DNA of 64,000 bases from Natrarchaeobius oligotrophus (GCF_003841465.1 NZ_REFZ01000002.1:62001-126000); one strand, 5' to 3'. Positions 11,603-29,592 are shown, counted from the stretch's first letter. The notes: a model not told the origin generated them from the letters alone. Translations and numbers: made by a program.

Positions 11603-11965
11603 CTATTCGACGTAGACGACGCCGTCCTCGACGACGACGTCGTACGTCTCGAGCGAGATGCTGTCGTCGCCGATGTGCTCGCCCGTCTCGAGTTCGTACT
11701 CCCAGCCGTGCCACGGGCAGGCGATCGTCTTGTCGTCGGAGAAATCCTCCTCCGGTCGCTTGCCGGGCTCGACGAACTCGGCGACGAGCTTCCCCTGGAC
11801 GCGTCCCGAACAGACGGGGCCGCCCATGTGCTCGCAGGTGTTCTGGATCGCGTAGTAGTCGCCCTCGACGTTGAGGACGCCGACGGCCTCGCCGTCTATC
11901 TCCACGATCGTTCGCTCGCCGGGTCCGAGTTCGTCGACCGTTCCGACGCGGACGCGCCCGCTCAC
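11603..11965 (-). CDS. Rieske [2Fe-2S] ferredoxin, long inter-motif loop (copy 1)
   Basis: A 120-residue Rieske protein with the two ligand motifs C-x-H (CEHMGG) and C-x2-H (CPWHGW). The spacing between the two ligand Cys is about 39 residues (C-x-H-x36-C-x2-H) against roughly 16-20 in ordinary Rieske ferredoxins, and the loop holds an extra Cys (GPVCSGR) and an EPGKRPEE segment. No signal peptide: cytoplasmic. Its ATG overlaps the TGA of the upstream amidohydrolase by 4 nt. It is clearly paralogous to the protein at 57.4-57.7 kb. Probable electron or sulfur-cluster partner of the amidohydrolase product; no Rieske oxygenase is nearby. Confidence 0.92.
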   Translation of the reverse strand: MSGRVRVGTVDELGPGERTIVEIDGEAVGVLNVEGDYYAIQNTCEHMGGPVCSGRVQGKLVAEFVEPGKRPEEDFSDDKTIACPWHGWEYELETGEHIGDDSISLETYDVVVEDGVVYVE

Positions 11966-13020
11966 AGGCCGAACACCTCGTTTGCGGTTCCACTCAGGAT
12001 GCGAGCTTTCTCGTCGTCGGAGAGGAACGGCCGCTCCGAGATGACCTCCGGAAGGTCGTAGTCCCAGTGTGGGTAGTCGGAGGCGTACATGAGCTGGCTC
12101 GCACCACCGATGGTGTCGATGACGGCCTCGAGTTCGGCCTCGTTCTCCGGCACCTCGAGCGGCTGGATTCCGAAGTAGAACTCCTTGATGTACTCGCTCG
12201 GGCGCTTCTCGAGCAGCGGCGCCTCCGACGGCCGTTTGAGATATTCGGCGTCGAGCCGACGCATCATGAGCGGCACCCAGAAGATCCCCGACTCCTGGAA
12301 CGCGATCTCGAGGTCGGGGAACTTCTCGGGGACGCCCTGGACCACGACGCTCGTCAACTGCGCCATGTTGTTCATGAGGAAGCCGAGCGTGTGGGTCTCG
12401 AGGAACTTCTCGTAGCCCTTGAGGTGGAACTCGTCGAGGCCGCCGCCGCCGGCGTGGAAGTTCAGCGCGAGTCCCTCCTTCTCGGCTGCCTCGTAGATGA
12501 CGTCGTACGCTCTGTTGCCCATCGGCGGCTCCGCGCCGGGGGTGACGAGACAGACGCCGCAGATTCCGTCCTCGTCGCCGACCCGGTAGATGAGGTCGGC
12601 CGCGGCCTCGGGATCCTGGTACGGCGCGGGGATCATCGTGTAGATCCCCTCGTCGGGGTCGACGACCTTGTCGAGCATGTAATCGACGTAACCGTTAGCG
12701 AGGATCTCCGGGCGTTCGTCGTCGCCTTTGATCCGGCCGAACGAGAGCATCTTCTGTGAGAGGATGATCGTCTTGTCGACGTCGAGGTGATCCATGATCA
12801 TCGGGATGTCCTCCGGCGTCATCTCCGACAGCGAGAGTTCGTCTCGCGAGATTCGACCGAAGACGTTCCGATCGCCGCTGCTCGTCGGATAGATCGATGA
12901 TTGCGGACTGTCGATCTTCTGTGAGAGTCTCGTCTTCCACGGTTCGTCCAGATACGGTGCGATGTGATCGAGCGTTTCGAAGTAGTGTGCGTCGGCGTCG
13001 ACGACTTCGTACGTTGTCAT
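11962..13020 (-). CDS. ACMSD-like amidohydrolase-fold protein (copy 1)
   Basis: A 352-residue TIM-barrel protein of the amidohydrolase_2 group. Metal-site residues are visible as D10-x-H12 (DADAH), the barrel His in LNFHAGGGG and the late Asp in YASDYPHWD, the (E/D)-x-H...H...D arrangement of ACMSD and gamma-resorcylate decarboxylase rather than the HxH of true hydrolases. A non-hydrolytic decarboxylase or hydratase role is therefore more likely than amide hydrolysis. Coupled by ATGA overlap to a Rieske ferredoxin and preceded by a binding lipoprotein. Its closest relative in the window is at 57.7-58.8 kb (shared ILSGTA.EVFG C-terminus, SQKML, PEKFPDL blocks). Confidence 0.88.
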   Translation of the reverse strand: MTTYEVVDADAHYFETLDHIAPYLDEPWKTRLSQKIDSPQSSIYPTSSGDRNVFGRISRDELSLSEMTPEDIPMIMDHLDVDKTIILSQKMLSFGRIKGDDERPEILANGYVDYMLDKVVDPDEGIYTMIPAPYQDPEAAADLIYRVGDEDGICGVCLVTPGAEPPMGNRAYDVIYEAAEKEGLALNFHAGGGGLDEFHLKGYEKFLETHTLGFLMNNMAQLTSVVVQGVPEKFPDLEIAFQESGIFWVPLMMRRLDAEYLKRPSEAPLLEKRPSEYIKEFYFGIQPLEVPENEAELEAVIDTIGGASQLMYASDYPHWDYDLPEVISERPFLSDDEKARILSGTANEVFGL

Positions 13021-13101: not shown

Positions 13102-14181
13102 CTACAGGAATCGGCGGTCGACGAGGTCGTCGACGTCCGGCACTTCCTCGATCAGGTCGGCGCGCTCGGCCAGTTCGAGCGAGGTGGTGAACTTCTCGTC
13201 CGTGATATGATCGCTCAGGTCCGTGTTCCACATCTCGTCTTCGCGTGCGATCTCGAGTGTCTCCGTCCAGACGTCCTCGCCGTAGTCGGGGAACTCCGTC
13301 GGCGCGGTTTCGATGAACTCGACGAGCTCCGCAACGTCTCGCTCGTACATGTCCTCGTAGGACGCGAGCATCACGTCGACGATCTCCTGGTGCATCTCTT
13401 CGTTCTGCTGGAGGTTCTCGTCCAGCGTCGCCCACGTCGCGAGCGTCATGTGGTCGAAGTCGTCGTTCGGGTTCGAGAAGTGCTGGATGATGCCTTCCTC
13501 TTCGGCGTCGAGGACGCCGGCGAGGAACGCGGTCGTCGCGACGCCTTCACCCGCCTCGATGGCGGCGATCCGATTGGGCGTTCCGGCGATGTACTGGTAG
13601 TCGACGGCTTCGGGATCGCCGAGGTTGGCCTCGACCGCGCTACGGCCGACCATCGCGGAGAACGAACTCGGGGAGTGGAGAATAAACGTCTCGCCTTCGA
13701 TTTCGTCCCAGCTGTCGATCCCCGGCGCGGTACAGACTTGCTGGCTGAACGCCTGGGAGAGTTCCATGAACGAACTGACGGGGAACCCTTCGGCGATCGC
13801 GTTCGTCAGCGACGGCGGCGTCACGTAGCCGATGTCGACGTCGTCGGAGATCATGCCCGCGATCATCGGGCCGAAGCCGTCGAACGTGATCGGCTCGATC
13901 GTCACGCCGCGCGATTCCATCTCCTCTAAGAAGTACGAGTACGGCGGCGCGGCGTACGTCGGACGGGTCGGACCCGGGTGACCGATGCGCAGTGTGTCCG
14001 GCAGCACGTCGCCGTCACCGTTGCCGTTCCCATCACCGTTCCCGGCACCGTTGCCGTTCCCATCACCGTTCCCATTACCGTTGCCGTTACCGTTATCGTC
14101 GCCGGCACATCCCGCGAGGCCTACCGTGAGGCCTGCACCGACGGCTGTTAATACGGTCCGCCTGCTGCTCTTGCGAGTCAT
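13102..14181 (-). CDS. ABC-type substrate-binding lipoprotein (TauA/NMT1-like), Tat-exported
   Basis: A 359-residue extracytoplasmic binding protein. The N-terminus has the twin-arginine motif SRRTVL (Arg7-Arg8), a hydrophobic stretch and lipobox LAGC with Cys25, followed by a long Asn/Gly/Asp linker built from near-identical short repeats (about 14017-14103). The mature part starts LPDTLRIGHPGPT and is paralogous to the binding proteins at 28.5 and 37.8 kb, all of the taurine/nitrate/sulfonate-type fold. No ABC ATPase or permease is adjacent; instead an amidohydrolase-Rieske pair follows 81 nt downstream, implying it captures that substrate. Leaderless start 26 nt below a TATA box. Confidence 0.9.
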   Translation of the reverse strand: MTRKSSRRTVLTAVGAGLTVGLAGCAGDDNGNGNGNGNGDGNGNGAGNGDGNGNGDGDVLPDTLRIGHPGPTRPTYAAPPYSYFLEEMESRGVTIEPITFDGFGPMIAGMISDDVDIGYVTPPSLTNAIAEGFPVSSFMELSQAFSQQVCTAPGIDSWDEIEGETFILHSPSSFSAMVGRSAVEANLGDPEAVDYQYIAGTPNRIAAIEAGEGVATTAFLAGVLDAEEEGIIQHFSNPNDDFDHMTLATWATLDENLQQNEEMHQEIVDVMLASYEDMYERDVAELVEFIETAPTEFPDYGEDVWTETLEIAREDEMWNTDLSDHITDEKFTTSLELAERADLIEEVPDVDDLVDRRFL

Positions 14182-14324: not shown

Positions 14325-14486
14325 TCACTCGGCGACGGCCGCCCAGACGATGACGCCGTCGTACGTCGGACACTCGACGTACAGCTTTGTGAACTCGAGT
14401 CCGGGGGAGAAACCGTCTTCGTCCTCTTTGACGACGTGTGGTTCGTCGCAGTGGGGACAGTGAAACTGATCGCCGGGTCGTTCCAT
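14325..14486 (-). CDS. Zinc-ribbon-like microprotein, 53 residues
   Basis: A 53-residue protein beginning MERPGDQFHCPHC, with Cys10/Cys13 as one knuckle (CPHC). The second knuckle is reduced to Cys39 in VECPTYDG: the second Cys expected in CPxC is Tyr. It resembles the small CPxCG-related zinc-finger proteins common in haloarchaea, some of which affect stress response or metabolism in Haloferax. His residues (His9, His12, His17) could substitute as ligands. Leaderless promoter 24 nt upstream. Located between the MFS gene and the binding-protein gene, all on the minus strand. Confidence 0.7.
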   Translation of the reverse strand: MERPGDQFHCPHCDEPHVVKEDEDGFSPGLEFTKLYVECPTYDGVIVWAAVAE

Positions 14487-15760: not shown

Positions 15761-16090
15761 TCACAGATCGACGACGATCTCGCCGTCCTCGACCGATACG
15801 TCGAACGTGCGAAGCCCCGTCTTGTCGTTTACGACGCTCCGTCCGGTCTCGAGGTCGAACTCCCAGTAGTGCCACGGACAGTGGACCGACGTCCGATCGG
15901 GGTCGACCGTCGGCAACTCGGAGTGGAGAACGCCCTCTCCGAGCGGTCCGCCCATGTGCACACACCGGTTCGAAATCGCGTAGTAGTCGCCTTCGACGTT
16001 GAAGATGGCGATCGGCAACCCGTCGACCTCGACGGCTTTTCCGTTCCCGTTCGGGATTTCGTCGACTGATGCGACGACGTGTTCCGTCAT
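15761..16090 (-). CDS. Rieske [2Fe-2S] ferredoxin, long inter-motif loop (copy 2)
   Basis: A 109-residue Rieske protein with CVHMGG and CPWHYW cluster motifs. Spacing is C-x-H-x25-C-x2-H, shorter than the other two copies in the window but still longer than usual, and it lacks their extra loop Cys. No signal peptide. The ATG overlaps the stop of the upstream amidohydrolase by 4 nt and the MFS gene follows 13 nt downstream. The C-terminal VSVEDGEIVVDL strand is shared in form with the other copies (VVVEDG.VYV). Presumed dedicated electron carrier for the paired amidohydrolase-fold protein; function inferred only from context. Confidence 0.92.
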   Translation of the reverse strand: MTEHVVASVDEIPNGNGKAVEVDGLPIAIFNVEGDYYAISNRCVHMGGPLGEGVLHSELPTVDPDRTSVHCPWHYWEFDLETGRSVVNDKTGLRTFDVSVEDGEIVVDL

Positions 16091-17217
16091 ATTCTGAAGA
16101 CGCTCTCCGCGTTCTTATGAAGGATTCGTTCTGCGAGCTCGTCGTCGATGGCCGGGGACTCGAGGACCCAGTTGTGGAGTTCGACCGTGTAGTGGGGGTA
16201 GTCGGTCGCGAACATCAGCGAGTCCCGCGCGTTGGTCATGTCGAGCATGGCCTCGAAGTTCTTCGTCTTGTCCGGGATGTTCATCGGCTGGCTCGAGAAC
16301 GAGAAGTTGTCCCGCAGGTACTCGCTGGGCTGTTTGTCGAGGTACTCCTGGCCCATCCGGTGCATCCGCTCGGTCATCTGGATGTCCTCCGGGTGGTCGT
16401 TGTACATCTCGTCGAGTCGCTCGGAGACGAACGGAACCCAGTTGACGCCGCCCTCGATCATGACGACCTCCAGTTCCGGGTACTTGTCGAAGACGCCGGT
16501 CATGATCATGTTGCCGACCATCATCATCGCGCGACACGGGTGAACGAGGCCGTACGCCTCCGACCACGTGCGAAGCGAGTTGCCGATGAGGTCCTTCTGC
16601 GGCCAGTTGGCGGTGCCACCGCCGTGAAGCGCAAGCGGCAGGTCGCGTGCGACCAGTTCCTCGAACACCTGATCGTACTTCGGCTGACCGAGCAGATCGT
16701 AGTGTCCGAAAAAGCCGTACATGCCGACGATGTCCTCCTCGTCGCCCACGCGCTTGATCTCCTCGACGGCCGTCTCGGGTTCCCACTGTTGCATCAGACC
16801 GACCGCTTTGATGTTCTCGTCGGTCGGCAGCACCTCCTCGAGGAGGTAGTCGTTGTACGCTCGCGCGATCTCGTTTTTCATCACGACGTTCTGGGAGTCG
16901 GGGAGCTTGTTGTACCCCGGCGTCAGGATCGGCATGTCGATCCCGAGCGCTTCCATCACCTCCACGATGTCCTCGCCGGTCTCGAGTTTGCCGTGCGCCT
17001 CGAGGCCGCCGGCACCGCGTGGCGTCGAATACCCGGGGAACCAGTAACACGACGTCGGCGGGAATCCCGTGATGTCGAGGTTGCGTTTGACTACCGCGCT
17101 ATCCATGTAGGGCATCAGTCGGTCGACCGGCGCACGGAAGTGGAAGTCGACGTCCACGACGAACGCTTCCTCCATCTCTTCCGTGAGCGGGAATTGCTCT
17201 GAGTCGATAACGGACAT
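16087..17217 (-). CDS. ACMSD-like amidohydrolase-fold protein (copy 2)
   Basis: A 376-residue amidohydrolase_2 protein, more divergent than copies 1 and 3. Metal-site residues appear in VVDVDFHF (D-x-H), LALHGGGT (His) and FATDYPHY (Asp), again the decarboxylase-type pattern. The N-terminal extension of about 15 residues is acidic. Leaderless start at 17217 is fixed by a strong CTTTATATCT box 24 nt upstream. First gene of the operon amidohydrolase-Rieske-MFS. It may be a decarboxylase, hydratase or C-C lyase; the coupling to a Rieske protein has no explanation in characterised ACMSD relatives. Confidence 0.88.
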   Translation of the reverse strand: MSVIDSEQFPLTEEMEEAFVVDVDFHFRAPVDRLMPYMDSAVVKRNLDITGFPPTSCYWFPGYSTPRGAGGLEAHGKLETGEDIVEVMEALGIDMPILTPGYNKLPDSQNVVMKNEIARAYNDYLLEEVLPTDENIKAVGLMQQWEPETAVEEIKRVGDEEDIVGMYGFFGHYDLLGQPKYDQVFEELVARDLPLALHGGGTANWPQKDLIGNSLRTWSEAYGLVHPCRAMMMVGNMIMTGVFDKYPELEVVMIEGGVNWVPFVSERLDEMYNDHPEDIQMTERMHRMGQEYLDKQPSEYLRDNFSFSSQPMNIPDKTKNFEAMLDMTNARDSLMFATDYPHYTVELHNWVLESPAIDDELAERILHKNAESVFRI

Positions 17218-19195: not shown

Positions 19196-19512
19196 TCGCC
19201 TCGAGCGGTTCGGTCCGAGAGCGACGAGCGGTTTCCACAGTGGAGATGATCGTTCTCTTCGTCGGCGAACCCCGTTCCGAGGCGGTCGCGGCTCTCGAGG
19301 TCGGGTTTCGATCGCACTCTCCAACTGGTACCGTACCCGTAACGAACGCGTCGGGTCAGACGCATCGAACCGAACGCGTCGAAACCCGGCCGCTGACCGC
19401 GGCTGTTCGGCGGATTCCGCTCCGCCGTCTCCGCTCTCGTGATAACAGTTCTATAAGTCCGCTAGCATCTCCAAAGGTTTAAATCCTCATCTGAACAATC
19501 ACGGTTCGAACT
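19196..19512 (+). other. Intergenic region, 317 bp
   Basis: No convincing gene on either strand. It ends in the promoter of the ABC-UbiD operon; sequence becomes AT-richer in the last 70 bp. Nothing else recognised. Confidence 0.6.
19477..19484 (+). promoter_or_regulatory. TATA box for ABC-UbiD operon
   Basis: GTTTAAAT, 29 nt upstream of the ATG at 19513. Confidence 0.65.
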
Positions 19513-20307
19513 ATGCCAAAGTCAATCACAGTCGATAGAGTGTCAAAAACGTACGGGAGCGGCGAAGACGCCGTTCACGTTCTCGACGATATTTCCATTT
19601 CGATTCCCGAGAAACAGTTCGTCTGTATTCTCGGTCCGTCCGGCTGTGGGAAGACGACGCTGATGAAGATGATGGACGGACTCATCGACCTCTCCGCCGG
19701 CGAGATCCGAATCGGCGACAACGTCATCACCGAACCGACGCCCGAAGCGGCCCTCGTGTTCCAGAACTTCGAGCTCTTTCCCTGGCGGACGACCCTCGAG
19801 AACGTCGAACTCGGCCTCGAAATCCTCGGCGTGGACAAATCGACGCGCAGAGAGCGCGCGAGGACCTGGATCGACCGCGTCGGCCTCGACGGCTTCGAGG
19901 AGAGCTACCCGTCCGAACTCTCCGGCGGGATGCAACAGCGCGTCGGCCTCGCACGTGCGCTCTGTGTCGATCCCGAAGTTATCCTGATGGACGAGCCCTT
20001 CGGCGCCCTCGACGCCCAGACGAAAGACAAGATGCAGACGCAACTTCTCCAGCTGTGGGAACAGGAGAAAAAGACCGTCGTCTTCGTCACCCACGACATC
20101 CGCGAGTCGATATTCCTCGCGGACCGCGTCCTCGTGATGGGTACGAAGCCGAGTTCGATCGTCGAGGACATCGAAATTCCCTTCGAGCGTCCGCGCTGGA
20201 AGCGCCGCGTCGAAATCGAAAACGACGAGCGGTTCGCGGAGATCGAACAACTCCTCCGCGAGCGCCTCGGCCTCAAAGCCGAGGAGGAACCAGAGGTCGT
20301 TCAATGA
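19513..20307 (+). CDS. ABC transporter ATP-binding protein (TauB/SsuB/NitD-like)
   Basis: A 264-residue ATPase energising import by the adjacent permeases. Complete motifs: Walker A GPSGCGKTT (41-49), Q-loop LVFQNFELFPWRT, signature LSGGMQQR (136-143), Walker B VILMDE (156-161), D-loop GALD and switch His194 (VTHD). The FELFPWRT segment is typical of the taurine/sulfonate/nitrate subgroup. It is the only such ATPase in the window although there are two permease pairs and three binding proteins. Its TGA overlaps the ATG of the UbiD gene by 4 nt. Confidence 0.95.
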   Translation: MPKSITVDRVSKTYGSGEDAVHVLDDISISIPEKQFVCILGPSGCGKTTLMKMMDGLIDLSAGEIRIGDNVITEPTPEAALVFQNFELFPWRTTLENVELGLEILGVDKSTRRERARTWIDRVGLDGFEESYPSELSGGMQQRVGLARALCVDPEVILMDEPFGALDAQTKDKMQTQLLQLWEQEKKTVVFVTHDIRESIFLADRVLVMGTKPSSIVEDIEIPFERPRWKRRVEIENDERFAEIEQLLRERLGLKAEEEPEVVQ

Positions 20308-21677
20308 AGGATTTACGATCGTACCTCGAGACGCTTCCGGACGATCAACTCGAACGCGTCTCGAAGCCGGTCAATCCCGCGGAGTTCGACGTCACGGCGA
20401 TCCTCCAGAACCTGGAGAACGAGGACCGGTACCCGGCCGTCCTGTTCGAGAACCCGACCGACATCGAGGGCCGAGAGACCGATTTTCAGCTCATCAGTAA
20501 TCTGTTTGCGGACCGACGGCGGATCGCACAGGCGCTCGATTTGCCCACCGACCAGTGGCGAATGGAGACCAGCCTCGAGTACGCCCGTCGCGAGACGAAC
20601 CGGCGGGAGCCCGTCGTCGTCGACAACGACGACGCGCCCGTCATGGACGATTCGGTTCCGGATCTGACCCACCTTCCGGTCGTTCGCCACCACCGGCTGG
20701 ATCCCGCGCCGTACATCAACATGACGCCCTCCATGAAAGATCCCGAGTCGGGCGTCTACAACGTCGCGTTTCTCCGTAACATGGTGAAAGGGGGGGAGAA
20801 GATGGGGATTCACATGTCCCCGCGACACAACTTCCGGATTTTCAAGACCAACGAGGACCGGGGCGAGCCGACGCGGATGGCAATCACGATCGGACACCAC
20901 CCCGGCTACTACCTCGGTGCGCTGACGCTCGCCGGATTCGAGGTCGACGAGTACGACGTGATCGGCGGGATGTTCGGGGAACCGCTCAGGCTGACGCCGT
21001 CGAAAACGTGGGGTGACGAGTTTCTCGTTCCGGCCGACGCCGAAGTCGTCGTCGAGGCAGAGGTCCTCCCCGAGGTCAGAGAGATCGAAGCGCCGTTCGG
21101 CGAGTTCCCCGGCTACTACGGTCCGCAACGTCTCAAACCGGTCGTCGAGGTCAAAAACGTCGTCTGTCGAACGAACCCGATCTTCCAGCACGTCTTCGTC
21201 GGCCACAAAGACGTCGCGACGCTCGGCGGCGTTCCGAAAGAGGGGGGCATCTACAACGACATCCAGGGCCGCGTCCCGAGCGTCGAGCAAGTCCACCTGC
21301 CCAGTTCGGGCTGTGGTCGGTTTCGCTGCTACGTGAGCTTAGAGCAGACCACCGAGGGCGAGGCCAAACACGCCGCGTTACAGGCGCTGGCCAGTTCGGA
21401 TTTCATCAAACACGTCGTCGTCGTCGACGAGGACGTCGACGCCTTCGACGAGGCGGACGTCCTCTGGGCTCAGTCGACTCGAATGCGGGCTGACGAGGAC
21501 GTCGACGTCATCAACGGGGTGAAAGGGAACACGCTCGACCCGAGCGTCCGCGGCGAGGTCGCAACATCAAAAATTATAATAGATGCAACGAAACCCGTTG
21601 ATGAACAGTATCCGCCAGTGTTGGACATCCCAGAGGATGCACTCGACCGGATGACGCTGTCAGAATACATAGAATAA
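20304..21677 (+). CDS. UbiD-family prFMN-dependent decarboxylase
   Basis: A 457-residue reversible (de)carboxylase that by family needs prenylated FMN and Mn/K. Mapping onto fungal Fdc1 with a constant offset of 15 places the catalytic triad at Arg158, Glu262 and Glu267 (E-A-P-F-G-E motif), with Asn153 as a metal ligand; MAITIGHHPGYYLG and GVPKEGGIYNDIQG are further signatures. So the active site is intact. Substrates of relatives include hydroxybenzoates, phthaloyl-type and unsaturated acids. Embedded in an ABC import operon: 4-nt overlap with the ATPase gene and 2 nt before a zinc-ribbon gene. UbiX is not in the window. The long upstream open frame is a shadow of the ATPase. Confidence 0.93.
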   Translation: MKDLRSYLETLPDDQLERVSKPVNPAEFDVTAILQNLENEDRYPAVLFENPTDIEGRETDFQLISNLFADRRRIAQALDLPTDQWRMETSLEYARRETNRREPVVVDNDDAPVMDDSVPDLTHLPVVRHHRLDPAPYINMTPSMKDPESGVYNVAFLRNMVKGGEKMGIHMSPRHNFRIFKTNEDRGEPTRMAITIGHHPGYYLGALTLAGFEVDEYDVIGGMFGEPLRLTPSKTWGDEFLVPADAEVVVEAEVLPEVREIEAPFGEFPGYYGPQRLKPVVEVKNVVCRTNPIFQHVFVGHKDVATLGGVPKEGGIYNDIQGRVPSVEQVHLPSSGCGRFRCYVSLEQTTEGEAKHAALQALASSDFIKHVVVVDEDVDAFDEADVLWAQSTRMRADEDVDVINGVKGNTLDPSVRGEVATSKIIIDATKPVDEQYPPVLDIPEDALDRMTLSEYIE

Positions 21678-21679
21678 TC

Positions 21680-21829
21680 ATGGCACGAATATTCTGGGCC
21701 GAATGTCCCGAATGCAGCGAGCTCTTCCACGCACACCACGGGGAGCTCAGAAACAGTGGTACCGAACTACTCTGTCCCACCTGCGGGGCGGAGTTCCTGG
21801 ATACAGACGCCGCACGAATCGTGGAATGA
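21680..21829 (+). CDS. Zinc-ribbon microprotein, 49 residues
   Basis: A 49-residue protein, MARIFWAECPEC... LLCPTCGAEF..., with two intact knuckles (Cys9/Cys12 and Cys32/Cys35) predicted to bind one zinc. It belongs with the small CPxCG-related zinc-finger proteins of haloarchaea. Spacing is 2 nt after the UbiD stop and 1 nt before the permease start, so it is an integral operon member. Possible roles: assembly or regulation of the UbiD enzyme, or interaction with the transporter ATPase; none can be read from sequence. Too short for a usual ORF cutoff, but codon use, motif and spacing make it convincing. Confidence 0.85.
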   Translation: MARIFWAECPECSELFHAHHGELRNSGTELLCPTCGAEFLDTDAARIVE

Positions 21830-21830
21830 T

Positions 21831-22667
21831 ATGTCAACACAGTCATTAACTACCGTTCGATCGACGTGGGAACGCGCTCGAACGAGCGTGAAAGAACGGA
21901 TCGCCGGCACGTGGTTCGAACGCAACAGAGGGATTCTGATTCGGCTCTTCGCCGTGCTCGTGGGACTCACGATCTGGGATCTGTACGCGCGAGGCCAGCC
22001 GGATTATCTGTTTCCTGGCCTCGAGCTGATCTTCGAATCGCTGGTTACGCAGTACCGCGAGGACGACCTGGTCGGCGCGTTCACGAACAGCATGGCGACG
22101 ATGTTCCTCGGCTACATTCTCGCCGTGCTCGTCGGCGTCCCGCTCGGGCTCGCGATGGGGATCAGCCGGAAGCTGGACGTGATGTTGAATCCGTACGTCA
22201 ACGCGATGTACGTCGCCCCGATTTCAGCGATGGTGCCGATTTTCATCCTCATCGGCGGCCCGACGTTCGAGGTGCGCGTGTTCATCGTCTTCCTCTTTTG
22301 CGTGTTCGAGATCCTCATCGACACGTACGAGGGGGTGAAGACGACGCCCGAGGGGCTCCTCCAGGTCGCCGAATCGTTCGGCGCGAGCAAGTACTACACC
22401 GTCCGTCACGTGATCTTCCCGCACGACCTGCCGTACATTACGGCCGGGCTCCGACTCGGGATGGGCCGTGCGGTCAACGGGATGATCCTGGCGGAGATCC
22501 TGATCGAGTTCGTCAACCTGGGCGGCATCATCCGTTCGTGGGCGGACGTGTTCCGCGTGAGCGGCGTCCTCTCGATCGTCCTGATGTTGATGCTGGTCAG
22601 CATCATCCTCACCAGGGCGATCCAGCTGCTCGAGAGACTGATCATCGACTGGGAGGCTGAGAAATAA
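21831..22667 (+). CDS. ABC transporter permease (TauC/SsuC-like), subunit A
   Basis: A 278-residue inner-membrane permease with about six helices. The EAA loop that contacts the ATPase is seen as YEGVKTTPEGLLQVAESFGAS with the following HVIFPHDLPYITAGLRLGMGRA. The ATG at 21831 lies 1 nt after the zinc-ribbon stop; an upstream in-frame extension overlaps that gene and is rejected. The last base of its stop is the first base of the next permease ATG. Paralogous to the permease at 27.2-28.0 kb (shared YVAPISA segment). Confidence 0.93.
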   Translation: MSTQSLTTVRSTWERARTSVKERIAGTWFERNRGILIRLFAVLVGLTIWDLYARGQPDYLFPGLELIFESLVTQYREDDLVGAFTNSMATMFLGYILAVLVGVPLGLAMGISRKLDVMLNPYVNAMYVAPISAMVPIFILIGGPTFEVRVFIVFLFCVFEILIDTYEGVKTTPEGLLQVAESFGASKYYTVRHVIFPHDLPYITAGLRLGMGRAVNGMILAEILIEFVNLGGIIRSWADVFRVSGVLSIVLMLMLVSIILTRAIQLLERLIIDWEAEK

Positions 22668-23482
22668 TGGCAACCGCAGACGAATCCCCACTCAGACAGC
22701 GATTGACGCTATCGATGGACGACAGAAACCACCAGCTCATCCTGCAGGCAGGCTTCGGCGTCTTCCTGCTGGCGCTGTACTCGGCGTTCGCCTACCTGGG
22801 GTATCCCAGCGAACGGATCCCGTCGATTTTGATGATCGTCGAGGCGCTGCAGGTTCAGATCGCCGAAGAAGGGCTCCTCGGTGCCGTGTGGGACGCGCTG
22901 TACGCGATCTTCATCGGCTTCTTCCTCGCGACGCTCGTGGGGATCCCGATGGGTATCCTGATGGGCGTCAGTCGGACGATCGAGGAACTGCTCGACCCGT
23001 ACGTCAACGCCATCTACGTCGTTCCGTACGCGGCGATCGTTCCGGCGCTGATCGTCTGGTTCGGCACCGGCATCCGCATCCGCGTCGCGATCTGTTTCCT
23101 GTTCGCGTTCTTCCCGATCGTGATCAACTCCTTCGAGGGAGCTCGAACGACGCCGGAAGGACTGCTCGAGGTCGCCGAGTCGTTCAACGCGAGCTGGCTG
23201 TTCACGATGAAAAACGTCGTGCTCCCCTACGAGATCCCGTACATCCTGGCGGGTCTCCGGATGGGGATCGGCCGCGCCGTTCGTGGTCTCGTCCTCGTCG
23301 AGATTATTGTCGCCGTCACCGGCCTCGGCGGGCTGATCCAGAACTGGAGTGCGGCGTTCCGACTCGAGGGCGTCATCAGCGTCGTTCTCGTGTTGATGTT
23401 CCTCGGCGTCACGCTCCCGTGGCTGATGGGGAAGGTCTACGACCGCCTCATCTGGTGGGACGTCGAGCGAGCCGGCTTCTGA
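22667..23482 (+). CDS. ABC transporter permease (TauC/SsuC-like), subunit B
   Basis: A 271-residue permease, the second of an unlike pair. EAA loop: FEGARTTPEGLLEVAESFNAS followed by VVLPYEIPYILAGLRMGIGRA. Overlaps the preceding permease by 1 nt (TAATG). It is more like the permease at 26.5-27.2 kb (shared YVVP.(A/S)(A/L)(I/V)VPALVIWFGTG-type segment) than its own partner, so the two types form A/B pairs in both operons and presumably heterodimers. Last gene of the operon; an inverted repeat follows about 190 nt downstream. Confidence 0.93.
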   Translation: MATADESPLRQRLTLSMDDRNHQLILQAGFGVFLLALYSAFAYLGYPSERIPSILMIVEALQVQIAEEGLLGAVWDALYAIFIGFFLATLVGIPMGILMGVSRTIEELLDPYVNAIYVVPYAAIVPALIVWFGTGIRIRVAICFLFAFFPIVINSFEGARTTPEGLLEVAESFNASWLFTMKNVVLPYEIPYILAGLRMGIGRAVRGLVLVEIIVAVTGLGGLIQNWSAAFRLEGVISVVLVLMFLGVTLPWLMGKVYDRLIWWDVERAGF

Positions 23483-23819
23483 CCGATTCGATCGGTTTCG
23501 TTTTCGAGCGATCCGGCGCGGACAGTTGAGCACTCGCCGTCGCTGCAGTCGCGTCCCGCCCTGGCGATCGGTGTCGGATCGATCGCGATCATTACGCGAC
23601 GGTTCGGTTCACGTCGCCTCGAGAACGGTACGCGCTCGCCGCCGATTCCTCTCAGACGATCTGTTGTAACGATTTACCGGTTCAACCGCAGGACAATCGC
23701 GGTTGAACCGGTAACGACTTCCAACAGTCCGTCTCAGTAACTGTGTTCTACACTGTACGGACGTGCCCGTCCGGCTCACTGTCAATTGGCGCTCGACACG
23801 TCGACCGATAACAGCGGGC
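23483..23819 (+). other. Intergenic region, 337 bp
   Basis: Convergent gap between the ABC-UbiD operon and the FAH-family gene. No gene recognised. It contains the long inverted repeat at 23661-23727. Confidence 0.6.
23661..23727 (+). repeat. Long inverted repeat (hairpin) with 16-bp perfect arms
   Basis: Arms TTACCGGTTCAACCGC (23674-23689) and its exact complement (23699-23714) surround a 9-nt loop. A further 6-bp pair CTGTTG (23661-23666)/CAACAG (23722-23727) flanks them, giving a 29-position arm with 7-nt mismatched bulges. It lies between two convergent genes, where it could act as a transcript end or processing structure, or be the remnant of a small mobile element. Confidence 0.7.
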
Positions 23820-26481: not shown

Positions 26482-27219
26482 TTACGCTTCCCAGTGGACG
26501 ATTCGACTCTCGATCTGCTTGAGGGTCCAGACCGAGACTATCCCCATCGTCATGAGCAGCAAGACGACGCTGAACACGCCTGCAAACTCCAGCCGTGCGC
26601 TGTAGCGGTGTAAGAGTAGTCCGAAACCGGTGGCCGAGATTAACAGTTCCGTAATTACGAGTCCCTTGACAGCGCGGCCGATACCAAGACGGAGACCGGC
26701 TACAACGTAACTGATCTCGTGAGGTAAGACGATGTTTCGGATGATATACAGCCGATCTGCGCCGAACGAACGCGCCGCTTCGATGAGGTTTTCCGGCGCA
26801 GTTCTCGCCCCTTCCTGGCTGTTCATCACGATCGGGAAAACCGCAAAGAAGAACACGACCAGCACCCGGACCTGGTAGCCGGTGCCGAACCAGATAACGA
26901 GCGCCGGAACGAGCGCGCTGAACGGCACCACGTAGATGGCATTCACGTACGGATTGAGGAAACTGTTTACGTGCCTGTCGATCCCCATCGCGACGCCGAC
27001 GGGAATCCCGACGATTACGGCGATGAAGTAGCCGACCGCTATCGCGTATACGGCGGCTTCCAGTGCTGGGATCAACAGCCCCTGTTCGAACTGTTCCTCG
27101 AGGGCGTACCCAATCTCCCAGGGAGTCGGTAGAAACGTCGTCTGCATCACTCCGATCGTATACAGCGTGATCACGACGATGAAAAATATCGCGTGATCGA
27201 AGTATCCCTGTCGGTCCAT
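26482..27219 (-). CDS. ABC transporter permease, subunit B type
   Basis: A 245-residue six-helix permease of the taurine/nitrate/sulfonate class. EAA loop: QEGARTAPENLIEAARSFGAD then IVLPHEISYVVAGLRLGIGRA. It is the B-type partner by similarity to the permease at 22.7-23.5 kb. Start codon directly abuts the stop of the upstream A-type permease. No ATPase gene is present in this operon; the ATPase at 19.5 kb may serve it. Confidence 0.92.
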   Translation of the reverse strand: MDRQGYFDHAIFFIVVITLYTIGVMQTTFLPTPWEIGYALEEQFEQGLLIPALEAAVYAIAVGYFIAVIVGIPVGVAMGIDRHVNSFLNPYVNAIYVVPFSALVPALVIWFGTGYQVRVLVVFFFAVFPIVMNSQEGARTAPENLIEAARSFGADRLYIIRNIVLPHEISYVVAGLRLGIGRAVKGLVITELLISATGFGLLLHRYSARLEFAGVFSVVLLLMTMGIVSVWTLKQIESRIVHWEA

Positions 27220-28035
27220 TCACACGTTCACCTCCGGCTGCCACGGGGTGAGGTACTGACTCGCTTTCTTCAGGACGAAGGTGAGTATTAGCCCCAGAAT
27301 CATGAGCAGAAGTACGATCGAAAGGACGCCAGCGACGTTGATATTGTTCTGTGCGGTGCGAATCATCGCACCCAGGTTCGCCCACGAGATCAGCAGTTCC
27401 GCGAGGATCATCCCTTTTACCGCCCGGCCGACGCCGAGTCGCATCCCCGCGAAAATATAGGGAAGATCGTATGGTAACACCACCCTCCGGAAGATGAAGT
27501 ATCTACTCGCGCCGAAGGACTTGGCGACGTCAATGATACGGTTCGGTGTCGTACGTGCGCCTTCGTAGGTCGTGATCGTTATTTCGAAGATGGCGAACAG
27601 AAACACGACGGCCACGCGACTCTCGAAGCTCGCACCGCCGACGAGGATGATAATCGGAACGAGCGCCGAAATCGGTGCGACGTAGAGCGCATTGATGTAG
27701 GGATTCAGTAGCGATGCGAGCCGTTCGTTCATTCCCATGGACAACCCAAGCGGAACGCCGACGATTACGGCCAGGAAAAACCCCAGAAAAAGCGTCTGGA
27801 GGCTCCCCTGTAAACTGGGAATGAGCTCGCCTTCGGCAAATTGAACGGATAGCGCATCGAGAATATCAAACCAGCCTGGGAAGAAAAAGACGGGTTTATC
27901 AGTTGCGTACCACTCCCATAACAGGATTCCGATGAGAATTCCTACCATCGACTCCCACAGTCCCACCGATATCCGGGATCTGCTGAAAATTCCCTCCAGG
28001 GAGACCTTGATCTGGTCCCGTAACGCGGTACTCAT
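27220..28035 (-). CDS. ABC transporter permease, subunit A type
   Basis: A 271-residue permease with about six helices. EAA loop: YEGARTTPNRIIDVAKSFGAS then VVLPYDLPYIFAGMRLGVGRA. First gene of a two-gene permease operon, driven by a strong leaderless promoter (AAGATATAAG, 26 nt upstream). A binding-lipoprotein gene lies divergently about 470 nt away, giving an importer that has everything but its ATPase. Paralogous to the permease at 21.8-22.7 kb. Confidence 0.92.
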   Translation of the reverse strand: MSTALRDQIKVSLEGIFSRSRISVGLWESMVGILIGILLWEWYATDKPVFFFPGWFDILDALSVQFAEGELIPSLQGSLQTLFLGFFLAVIVGVPLGLSMGMNERLASLLNPYINALYVAPISALVPIIILVGGASFESRVAVVFLFAIFEITITTYEGARTTPNRIIDVAKSFGASRYFIFRRVVLPYDLPYIFAGMRLGVGRAVKGMILAELLISWANLGAMIRTAQNNINVAGVLSIVLLLMILGLILTFVLKKASQYLTPWQPEVNV

Positions 28036-28070: not shown

Positions 28071-28470
28071 TTGTGAATCGGTAACAATTAGCTATCGTTC
28101 TTTTTGCCCCATTTCGAAGCGCTCAACGCTCAACCGTCTTCTCGACCGAGATTCAATGGGGAGGGCAACGTCTAGGTGATACTCTTGGGGGCGGAGGACT
28201 TTTCGATCGTTCGATGAGACCGTCGTTTTACGGGGCGGACCGGTAGAAACAGTCTGCGAGAGGTGTAACCGCTGCTGGATCAAGTTTGTTATCACACCTT
28301 GTAACAGAAATCTATACGCTCTTGTGTAGGACAGTGTTGAGAGAGCACTCGTGTGGTTTTCCAGCTAGTGCTTCGGACTGCGATACCGGCTGCGAGTAGC
28401 TCTTCACGTCAGCCTCGATCGAACGAACAAGAAACTGAACAGGATCAACATTCTTGTGCGAAAGAGCGAA
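28071..28470 (+). other. Divergent intergenic region, about 400 bp
   Basis: Separates the permease operon from the binding-lipoprotein gene. Lower GC than the flanks. A 67-codon minus-strand frame (28092-28295) starts with a plausible codon but is Arg/Ser-rich and not acidic, unlike real haloarchaeal proteins, so I do not call it. It may contain a degraded element or control sites; I recognise none. Confidence 0.5.
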
Positions 28471-28478
28471 TCTTTAAG
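28471..28478 (+). promoter_or_regulatory. TATA box for binding lipoprotein gene
   Basis: TCTTTAAG, 29 nt upstream of the ATG at 28507; two earlier in-frame starts are too close to it or upstream of it. Confidence 0.6.
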
Positions 28479-28506
28479 TGATATGGATCGCATCATTCAC
28501 GTGGGT

Positions 28507-29592
28507 ATGCTTAACAGTAACACGCAGGGTCGACGACGATTTTTAAAAGCAGCCGGTGTCGGTACAGTTGTGGGGTTGGCTGGGTGTACAGGGACCAACG
28601 GTGACGACGATACAGCGGACGACGACGATGGAAACGGAACGGCCGATGGATCGACCGACGATTCCGATGCCGAGTTACCGGACACCATCGGAATTGGTAC
28701 CCCTTCACCCGTCCAACCGCTGTATTACTTTTCGGTCTTTCCGGAGTTTCAGGAACTCATGGAGGACCGGCACGGAGTCACCGTCGAACTCACTAACTAT
28801 GGCGGCTACGCTTCGATGATCGCGGGCCTCTTCCAGGAGGAAGTACACATTGCCCCACAAGCGCCGTTGTCCGTCATCAACTCCCTCAACGAAGGAATGG
28901 ATCTCGTTAGTCCGCTGAGCTTCGTTCAGGGATACCCCCAGCCGCTAATGGCTACTCCCGAAATCGAGTCGTGGGAGGATCTGGAAGGAGAGACGATCGC
29001 GCTCCACGATCCCCAGGCCGGCACCACGTTCTCCGTGAAACTGATGGTTCGGGAGAATCTCGGGAGCATGGATGCCGTCGATTACGATTACATCTTCGGA
29101 TCGGACAGCCGGTACGCCGCCATCGAGGCCGGTGAGGTCGTAGCTGCAACGGTGTCCGCGACGCTGGGCGCCCGAGCCGAGCGCGACGGTTTTACCATCC
29201 TAGAGGAAGGCCTCGAGCGAGATGAACCGTTCCAGCTGTGGACGATGATGCGGCAGAACTGGGAGCAGAATCCAGAGTTGTACGACGTCATCGTGAACAC
29301 CCTCCACGAGGCCCAGACGAATATGTACGAGGTCGACGAGGACGACATCGTCGATCGGGCCCTGGATATCCCGGTCGATCGGCCGGAGTCCTACGGCGAT
29401 CTCGACAGAGAGATCGCAATCGACGTCTTCGAGAGGATGCGGAACCTGAATACGTGGCCAGAGGAAGGCGGGCTCTCGAATGCCGCGATTGAGCAGGTGC
29501 AAGACACGATCGTCGATGTCGAAGAGATGGACGAAGAGGACCGAGTCAACCGTGACGACTTTGTGATTATCGATGAATTCGATCTCGAGTGA
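28507..29592 (+). CDS. ABC-type substrate-binding lipoprotein (TauA/NMT1-like), Tat-exported
   Basis: A 361-residue binding protein. Signal: GRRRFLKAAG twin-arginine region (Arg9-11), lipobox LAGC with Cys27, then an Asp-rich linker. The mature domain starts LPDTIGIGTPSPVQP and contains FGSDSRYAAIEAGEV, matching the paralogues at 13.1 and 37.8 kb. Divergent from the permease pair at 26.5-28.0 kb, so together they form an importer of an organic anion. Start set by the TATA box at 28471. GC content of this gene is somewhat lower than that of genes around 40 kb. Confidence 0.9.
   Translation: MLNSNTQGRRRFLKAAGVGTVVGLAGCTGTNGDDDTADDDDGNGTADGSTDDSDAELPDTIGIGTPSPVQPLYYFSVFPEFQELMEDRHGVTVELTNYGGYASMIAGLFQEEVHIAPQAPLSVINSLNEGMDLVSPLSFVQGYPQPLMATPEIESWEDLEGETIALHDPQAGTTFSVKLMVRENLGSMDAVDYDYIFGSDSRYAAIEAGEVVAATVSATLGARAERDGFTILEEGLERDEPFQLWTMMRQNWEQNPELYDVIVNTLHEAQTNMYEVDEDDIVDRALDIPVDRPESYGDLDREIAIDVFERMRNLNTWPEEGGLSNAAIEQVQDTIVDVEEMDEEDRVNRDDFVIIDEFDLE

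Follow-up and report, generated by a model that had tools for sequence, protein, structure and literature searches.

The window considered here, a stretch of 64,000 nucleotides (nt) from Natrarchaeobius oligotrophus (GCF_003841465.1, NZ_REFZ01000002.1:62001-126000), contains an ATP-binding cassette (ABC) importer operon that also encodes a UbiD-family decarboxylase, here called UbiD1, and a 49-residue protein with a predicted zinc-ribbon fold, here called the microprotein. These two genes sit between the ATPase gene and the permease genes, and all five are on the same strand:

19513..20307, plus strand: ABC importer ATPase of the nitrate/taurine (NMT1) type (PF00005, ABC_tran, 108 bits)
20304..21677, plus strand: UbiD-family decarboxylase UbiD1, 457 residues (three UbiD Pfam domains, TIGR00148, ERE triad)
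21680..21829, plus strand: zinc-ribbon microprotein, 49 residues, putative UbiD partner (two CxxC pairs; homologues directly 3' of UbiD1-type genes)
21831..22667, plus strand: ABC permease 1 (PF00528, BPD_transp_1, 68 bits)
22667..23482, plus strand: ABC permease 2 (PF00528, BPD_transp_1, 77 bits; adjacent in the related genomes G119 and G293 as well)

The genes are tightly packed: ATPase and UbiD1 share an ATGA junction (4-nt overlap), 2 nt separate UbiD1 from the microprotein and 1 nt the microprotein from permease 1, and the permease genes overlap by 1 nt. The start of permease 1 is placed at the in-frame ATG at 21831, within a longer open reading frame (ORF) that opens at 21756. This layout agrees to the base with an earlier interpretation made without database searches (the sequence-only reading), which proposed that uptake of a carboxylated compound is coupled to its decarboxylation, with the microprotein as assembly factor or coupling element. 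The ATPase and two permeases of an NMT1-type importer are all present by Pfam and NCBIfam; the best NCBIfam matches of the ATPase are taurine, SaoA and nitrate ATPases, all under the equivalog cut-offs.

The block among haloarchaea

The block is kept, in the same gene order, in two haloarchaeal genera. In G119, a sister species of the same genus, 36 kb can be aligned and the entire neighbourhood is common, including the five genes. In G293, from a second genus, the order on one strand is UbiD2-ATPase-UbiD1-microprotein-permease-permease-UbiX (UbiD2 being a second UbiD, discussed below), with the other common catabolic genes rearranged. The ATPase is 95% identical in G119 and 76% in G293; in the latter UbiD1 is 77% and the microprotein 63% identical. 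An orthologue of UbiD1 is found in only three of 125 genomes of the family (G000, G119 and G293), and the orthologue of permease 1 (at least 70% identity) is confined to the same three.

A related importer is present in a fourth genome, G118, at 63% identity for the ATPase and about 50% for the permeases. Its ATPase, permease and permease genes are contiguous, with neither UbiD nor microprotein; UbiD and microprotein therefore look inserted relative to it. UbiD is not merely sporadic at this position, however: the orthologous importer carries both UbiD and microprotein in three of three cases among the 125 family genomes. The pair is fixed in this importer's lineage, rare though the whole module is.

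The microprotein as a gene and a fold

Comparison with G119 reveals nine synonymous and no non-synonymous changes in the microprotein gene, for a non-synonymous rate (Ka) of 0; such a split has a probability of about 1.4e-6 if changes hit sites at random. The corresponding Ka values are 0.035 for UbiD1, about 0.05 for the permeases and 0.022 for the ATPase. This absence of non-synonymous change, together with homologues in the corresponding position in other phyla, establishes the microprotein as a real gene. It is the only clear member of its family in the genome.

The four cysteines form two CxxC pairs and are invariant in the alignment (C9, C12, C32, C35). No curated Pfam or NCBIfam family matches the microprotein above cut-off, and a search of plasmids gave no match. 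The AlphaFold model is of moderate quality (predicted local distance difference test score, pLDDT, 72.5), and the structures it resembles are generic zinc ribbons (E >0.3); kinship with VdcD, the zinc-ribbon subunit of the UbiD enzyme VdcC, is therefore neither supported nor refuted by structure. A profile of the microprotein against the PDB retrieved zinc fingers and ribosomal or transcription ribbons, with VdcD absent among the 60 matches listed; these hits were set aside as shared CxxC composition.

UbiD1 and its putative cofactor supply

UbiD1 matches the Rift, C-terminal and N-terminal UbiD domains (PF01977, PF20696 and PF20695; 157, 109 and 51 bits) and TIGR00148 (278 bits), all above cut-off. 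Its catalytic triad R158/E262/E267 is intact, as the sequence-only reading had it, and aligns with the ERE triad of VdcC (R168, E273, E278) and with that of HmfF. The closest solved structure, at full length, is HmfF (6h6v, 255 bits), a 2,5-furandicarboxylate (FDCA) decarboxylase; the indole-3-carboxylate decarboxylase AnInD (7p9q), purified and assayed in single-subunit form (PMC8988006), is also among the nearest. The furan specificity of HmfF is set by a histidine, H297 (PMC7976604; position 296 as counted in the 6h6v chain). UbiD1 has Val304 in that column, and FDCA was rejected as its default substrate because this histidine is absent.

The prenylated flavin (prFMN) cofactor could plausibly be supplied from within the genome, since a genome search finds a single UbiX (222 bits, contig C2:58772-59302), about 22 kb upstream of UbiD1 and beside UbiD2, which is 31% identical to UbiD1 and retains the triad residues at the ERE columns. 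The UbiD2-UbiX pair lies just beyond the window (L007 9437-10993 and 8736-9332; contig C2:59-61 kb) and is followed by a binding-protein gene.

The microprotein and its UbiD in other phyla

No relatives came to light when the species genome collection was scanned with a single sequence; an alignment was needed. With it, a scan of 84,980 species genomes returned 358 relatives, the best 80 of which were used. Homologues lie directly 3' of a UbiD1-type gene in Deltaproteobacteria/Myxococcota (L021-L024, L039, L041), Nitriliruptorales of the Actinomycetota (L025), marine archaea (L027, L028), Desulfotomaculum of the Bacillota (L029), Acidobacteria (L042) and Thermodesulfobacteriota (L043-L046); a more distant homologue has the same position in a beta-proteobacterium (L048). 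Over the collected loci, a microprotein profile finds only copies 3' of UbiD1-type genes and the haloarchaeal ones (E 2e-9 or better); the next match has E 0.05 or worse.

Inside one part of the UbiD tree that spans 36 rows, UbiDs with a microprotein form two groups; the tree is a quick one with long branches, and VdcC is elsewhere in it. Placing the microprotein on this tree takes 3-4 changes at the fewest, and a single clade is not rejected (approximately unbiased test, p-AU 0.364, with L026 and L040 in the set). An exploratory comparison picked out columns kept in UbiDs with a microprotein and not in those without (D133, P134, K162, G273, Q275 and others), partly near the triad in sequence.

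The transporter beside the pair varies. In L025 it is an ABC importer (permease-ATPase-permease-UbiD1-microprotein-NMT1 binding protein); in Desulfotomaculum the order is TAXI-TRAP-UbiD1-microprotein-UbiX. A tripartite ATP-independent periplasmic (TRAP) transporter adjoins the pair in L039, L041, L043, L044 and L045, a BenE transporter in L042, and a major facilitator superfamily (MFS) transporter in L028 and L027 (the latter at 86% identity). In L021 and L022 an NMT1-type binding protein is encoded two genes downstream, and L046 shows no multi-helix membrane neighbour in a hydropathy count. Separately, the Natrinema versiforme plasmid pNVE500 (L020, 4904-10410) groups UbiX, a TAXI binding protein, a UbiD and a TRAP permease, with no zinc ribbon.

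The microprotein thus accompanies the enzyme, not the importer. A link between import and decarboxylation is supported at the gene level, because the transporters next to UbiDs with a microprotein belong to four or more classes (ABC, TRAP, BenE, MFS) and because in haloarchaea permease and UbiD1 share one distribution. To this extent the coupling put forward in the sequence-only reading stands; the substrate and activity it supposed are inferred.

Comparison with known systems

The nearest precedent is the VdcCD pair (also BsdCD, ShdCD; subunit D is NF041205). VdcD is a zinc ribbon, an integral allosteric activator needed for VdcC activity and bound at the ERE loops (PMC8379154); in the literature searched it is the sole zinc ribbon found to work with a UbiD. 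As in the block, a UbiD is followed directly by a gene, often overlapping, for a small zinc ribbon with two CxxC pairs. The differences are several. The microprotein is shorter than VdcD and lacks the long C-terminal tail and the WRxxE motif after the second CxxC; UbiD1 scores 273 bits against the VdcC model NF041204, under its cut-off of 650, and occupies a separate part of the tree; and in the VdcBCD loci examined the pair is not surrounded by importer genes in the manner of the block. The microprotein falls outside the VdcD family and may work like VdcD.

Importers of the NMT1 type (taurine, nitrate, SaoXAP) have an ATPase of the same class and two permeases; the block differs in the UbiD and zinc-ribbon genes between ATPase and permease and in a binding protein that lies outside the operon. 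Contigs of phthalate degraders carry a UbiD gene together with a TRAP importer, UbiX and a CoA transferase; those UbiDs are phthaloyl-CoA decarboxylases, match UbiD1 at only E 2e-15, and are described without mention of a zinc ribbon in the consulted part of the source (PMC8269228).

A proposed module and its rivals

The reading favoured here, with moderate confidence, is that of an uptake-and-decarboxylation module in which the microprotein would activate UbiD1 as one of its subunits, in the way of VdcD. The ABC importer would take up a carboxylated compound, probably aromatic or heteroaromatic; UbiD1, carrying prFMN from the distant UbiX, would decarboxylate it in the cytoplasm; the zinc ribbon would bind as a stoichiometric subunit, holding or activating the catalytic loops as VdcD does for VdcC; and the product would pass to the enzymes of the neighbouring aromatic-degradation genes. 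The microprotein would then probably be a dedicated subunit of the enzyme, not of the importer.

Several observations weigh against this reading. The microprotein gives no hit to the VdcD family model NF041205 (cut-off 30 bits), against 108.8 bits for a BsdD control, whose sequence was confirmed by matches to ShdD in 7ae4 and to NF041205; a six-sequence VdcD profile gives an hhalign probability of 9.5%. UbiD1 does not keep the complete set of VdcC residues that form salt bridges with VdcD. With no homology to VdcD demonstrable and that set not kept, the activating role, like the assembly role suggested in the sequence-only reading, stands by analogy with VdcD (PMC8379154). Some UbiDs of the same tree region have no microprotein (L026, L030-L037), and the beta-proteobacterial copy (L048) adjoins a glycosyltransferase in place of a transporter. 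Finally, one count in favour of the reading carries a caveat: multi-helix membrane neighbours occur at 9 of 14 loci with a microprotein and 7 of 49 without (p 5e-4 by a simple hydropathy count; 10 of 14 if the ABC locus is added by hand), but such p-values are optimistic, as many loci are related, no correction was made for relatedness, and the nine include the L048 glycosyltransferase.

That the microprotein is coupled to UbiD1, and not to one transporter class, would equally suit a maturation factor, which would assist in loading prFMN onto UbiD1 or in its oxidative maturation there, and would leave afterwards. Small UbiD-dedicated proteins with exactly such roles exist: the prFMNH2 chaperone LpdD (PMC10865409) and the prFMN maturase PhdC/YclD (PMC13040415). 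These are described with other folds, however, Pba3/4-like for LpdD and an active site with conserved Glu residues for PhdC, whereas a 49-residue zinc ribbon offers no obvious flavin pocket; and UbiD2 of the same genome has no ribbon after it. A maturation role is judged unlikely. More doubtful is a hetero-oligomeric (de)carboxylase of UbiD1 and UbiD2 with the ribbon as small subunit, comparable to the alpha, beta and gamma subunits of phenylphosphate carboxylase. UbiD2-type and UbiD1-type genes do co-cluster in G000, G119, G293 (where they adjoin the block), L029, and L021, L022 and L024; but in the window's genome 22 kb separates the two, which belong to different operons, UbiD2 keeps the triad residues at the ERE columns, UbiD1 is far under the NCBIfam cut-offs for phenylphosphate carboxylase, and the examined stretch of the other loci with a microprotein shows no second UbiD.

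The two remaining explanations concern the importer, and both have little probability. Simple operon packing, in which an importer is co-transcribed with a catabolic enzyme and with an unrelated small protein, and no direct partnership exists, would be in keeping with the common mixing of transport and enzyme genes in catabolic operons, TRAP genes on contigs with phthaloyl-CoA decarboxylase being one reported instance (PMC8269228). It fits poorly with an adjacency of microprotein and UbiD that is kept across several bacterial and archaeal phyla while the transporters change. Least credible is that the microprotein serves as the coupling element of the sequence-only reading, either tethering the importer ATPase and UbiD1 physically or acting as a regulator between the two. 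The microprotein gene does lie between UbiD and permease genes in the window and in G293, but it accompanies UbiD whatever the transporter: it is found next to TRAP, BenE and MFS genes with no adjoining ABC ATPase, and the related G118 importer does without both proteins. That claim is not upheld.

Flanking features and the surrounding catabolic island

Two further features may belong to the importer:

19478..19484, plus strand: TTTAAAT, TATA-like box read from the sequence, about 32 nt 5' of the ATPase start
13102..14181, minus strand: candidate substrate-binding protein for the importer, with a lipoprotein or twin-arginine translocation (TAT)-like start, outside the operon

The TTTAAAT motif would fit a near-leaderless haloarchaeal promoter for the operon. 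The candidate binding protein has weak taurine/SsuA-type matches in NCBIfam and a single PDB match of marginal E-value; a 91% identical copy is present in G119, and among the binding proteins of the G293 cluster a 52% homologue matches it best.

Aromatic catabolism is represented nearby by an acyl-CoA ligase, a PaaA-like epoxygenase, an extradiol dioxygenase, a CoA transferase and an amidohydrolase of the decarboxylase superfamily. There are two related pairs of amidohydrolase and Rieske-ferredoxin genes (15764-17217 and 11603-13020, both minus strand); the one amidohydrolase tested, at 16090-17217, is related to 5-carboxyvanillate and gamma-resorcylate decarboxylases. Beside an MFS gene, an unannotated 53-residue ORF (14325-14486, minus strand; 77% identical in G119, 70% in G293) has one CPHC pair and a later single cysteine. 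Downstream of permease 2, a perfect inverted repeat at 23674-23714, TTACCGGTTCAACCGC-9 nt-GCGGTTGAACCGGTAA, may be a terminator or an operator; a similar stretch occurs elsewhere in the G119 cluster. A second pair of importer permeases, about 50% identical to those of the block, lies at 26482-28035 (minus strand), with a divergent binding protein at 28456-29592 (plus strand). Neither an ATPase nor a UbiD of its own was found for it in the window; for want of the former, this pair may share the ATPase at 19513.

Implications

A UbiD with a zinc-ribbon subunit is a known kind of arrangement; the pair described here would be a variant of it, and its association with transporters recurs across phyla. 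One might go further and suppose, tentatively, that the microprotein represents a second family of zinc-ribbon allosteric UbiD subunits, independent of the first and spread across bacteria and archaea. It would then mark a UbiD subfamily devoted to freshly imported carboxylates, in which the transporter class (ABC, TRAP, BenE or MFS) is freely exchanged around a fixed core of enzyme and ribbon.

Many UbiD enzymes cannot be obtained in active form, and missing partner proteins are suspected (PMC10865409). If a small, unnamed and easily missed family of partners told which UbiDs depend on it, those enzymes could be reconstituted and their substrates discovered. The adjoining transporters narrow those substrates to compounds taken up from outside, and so make the function testable.

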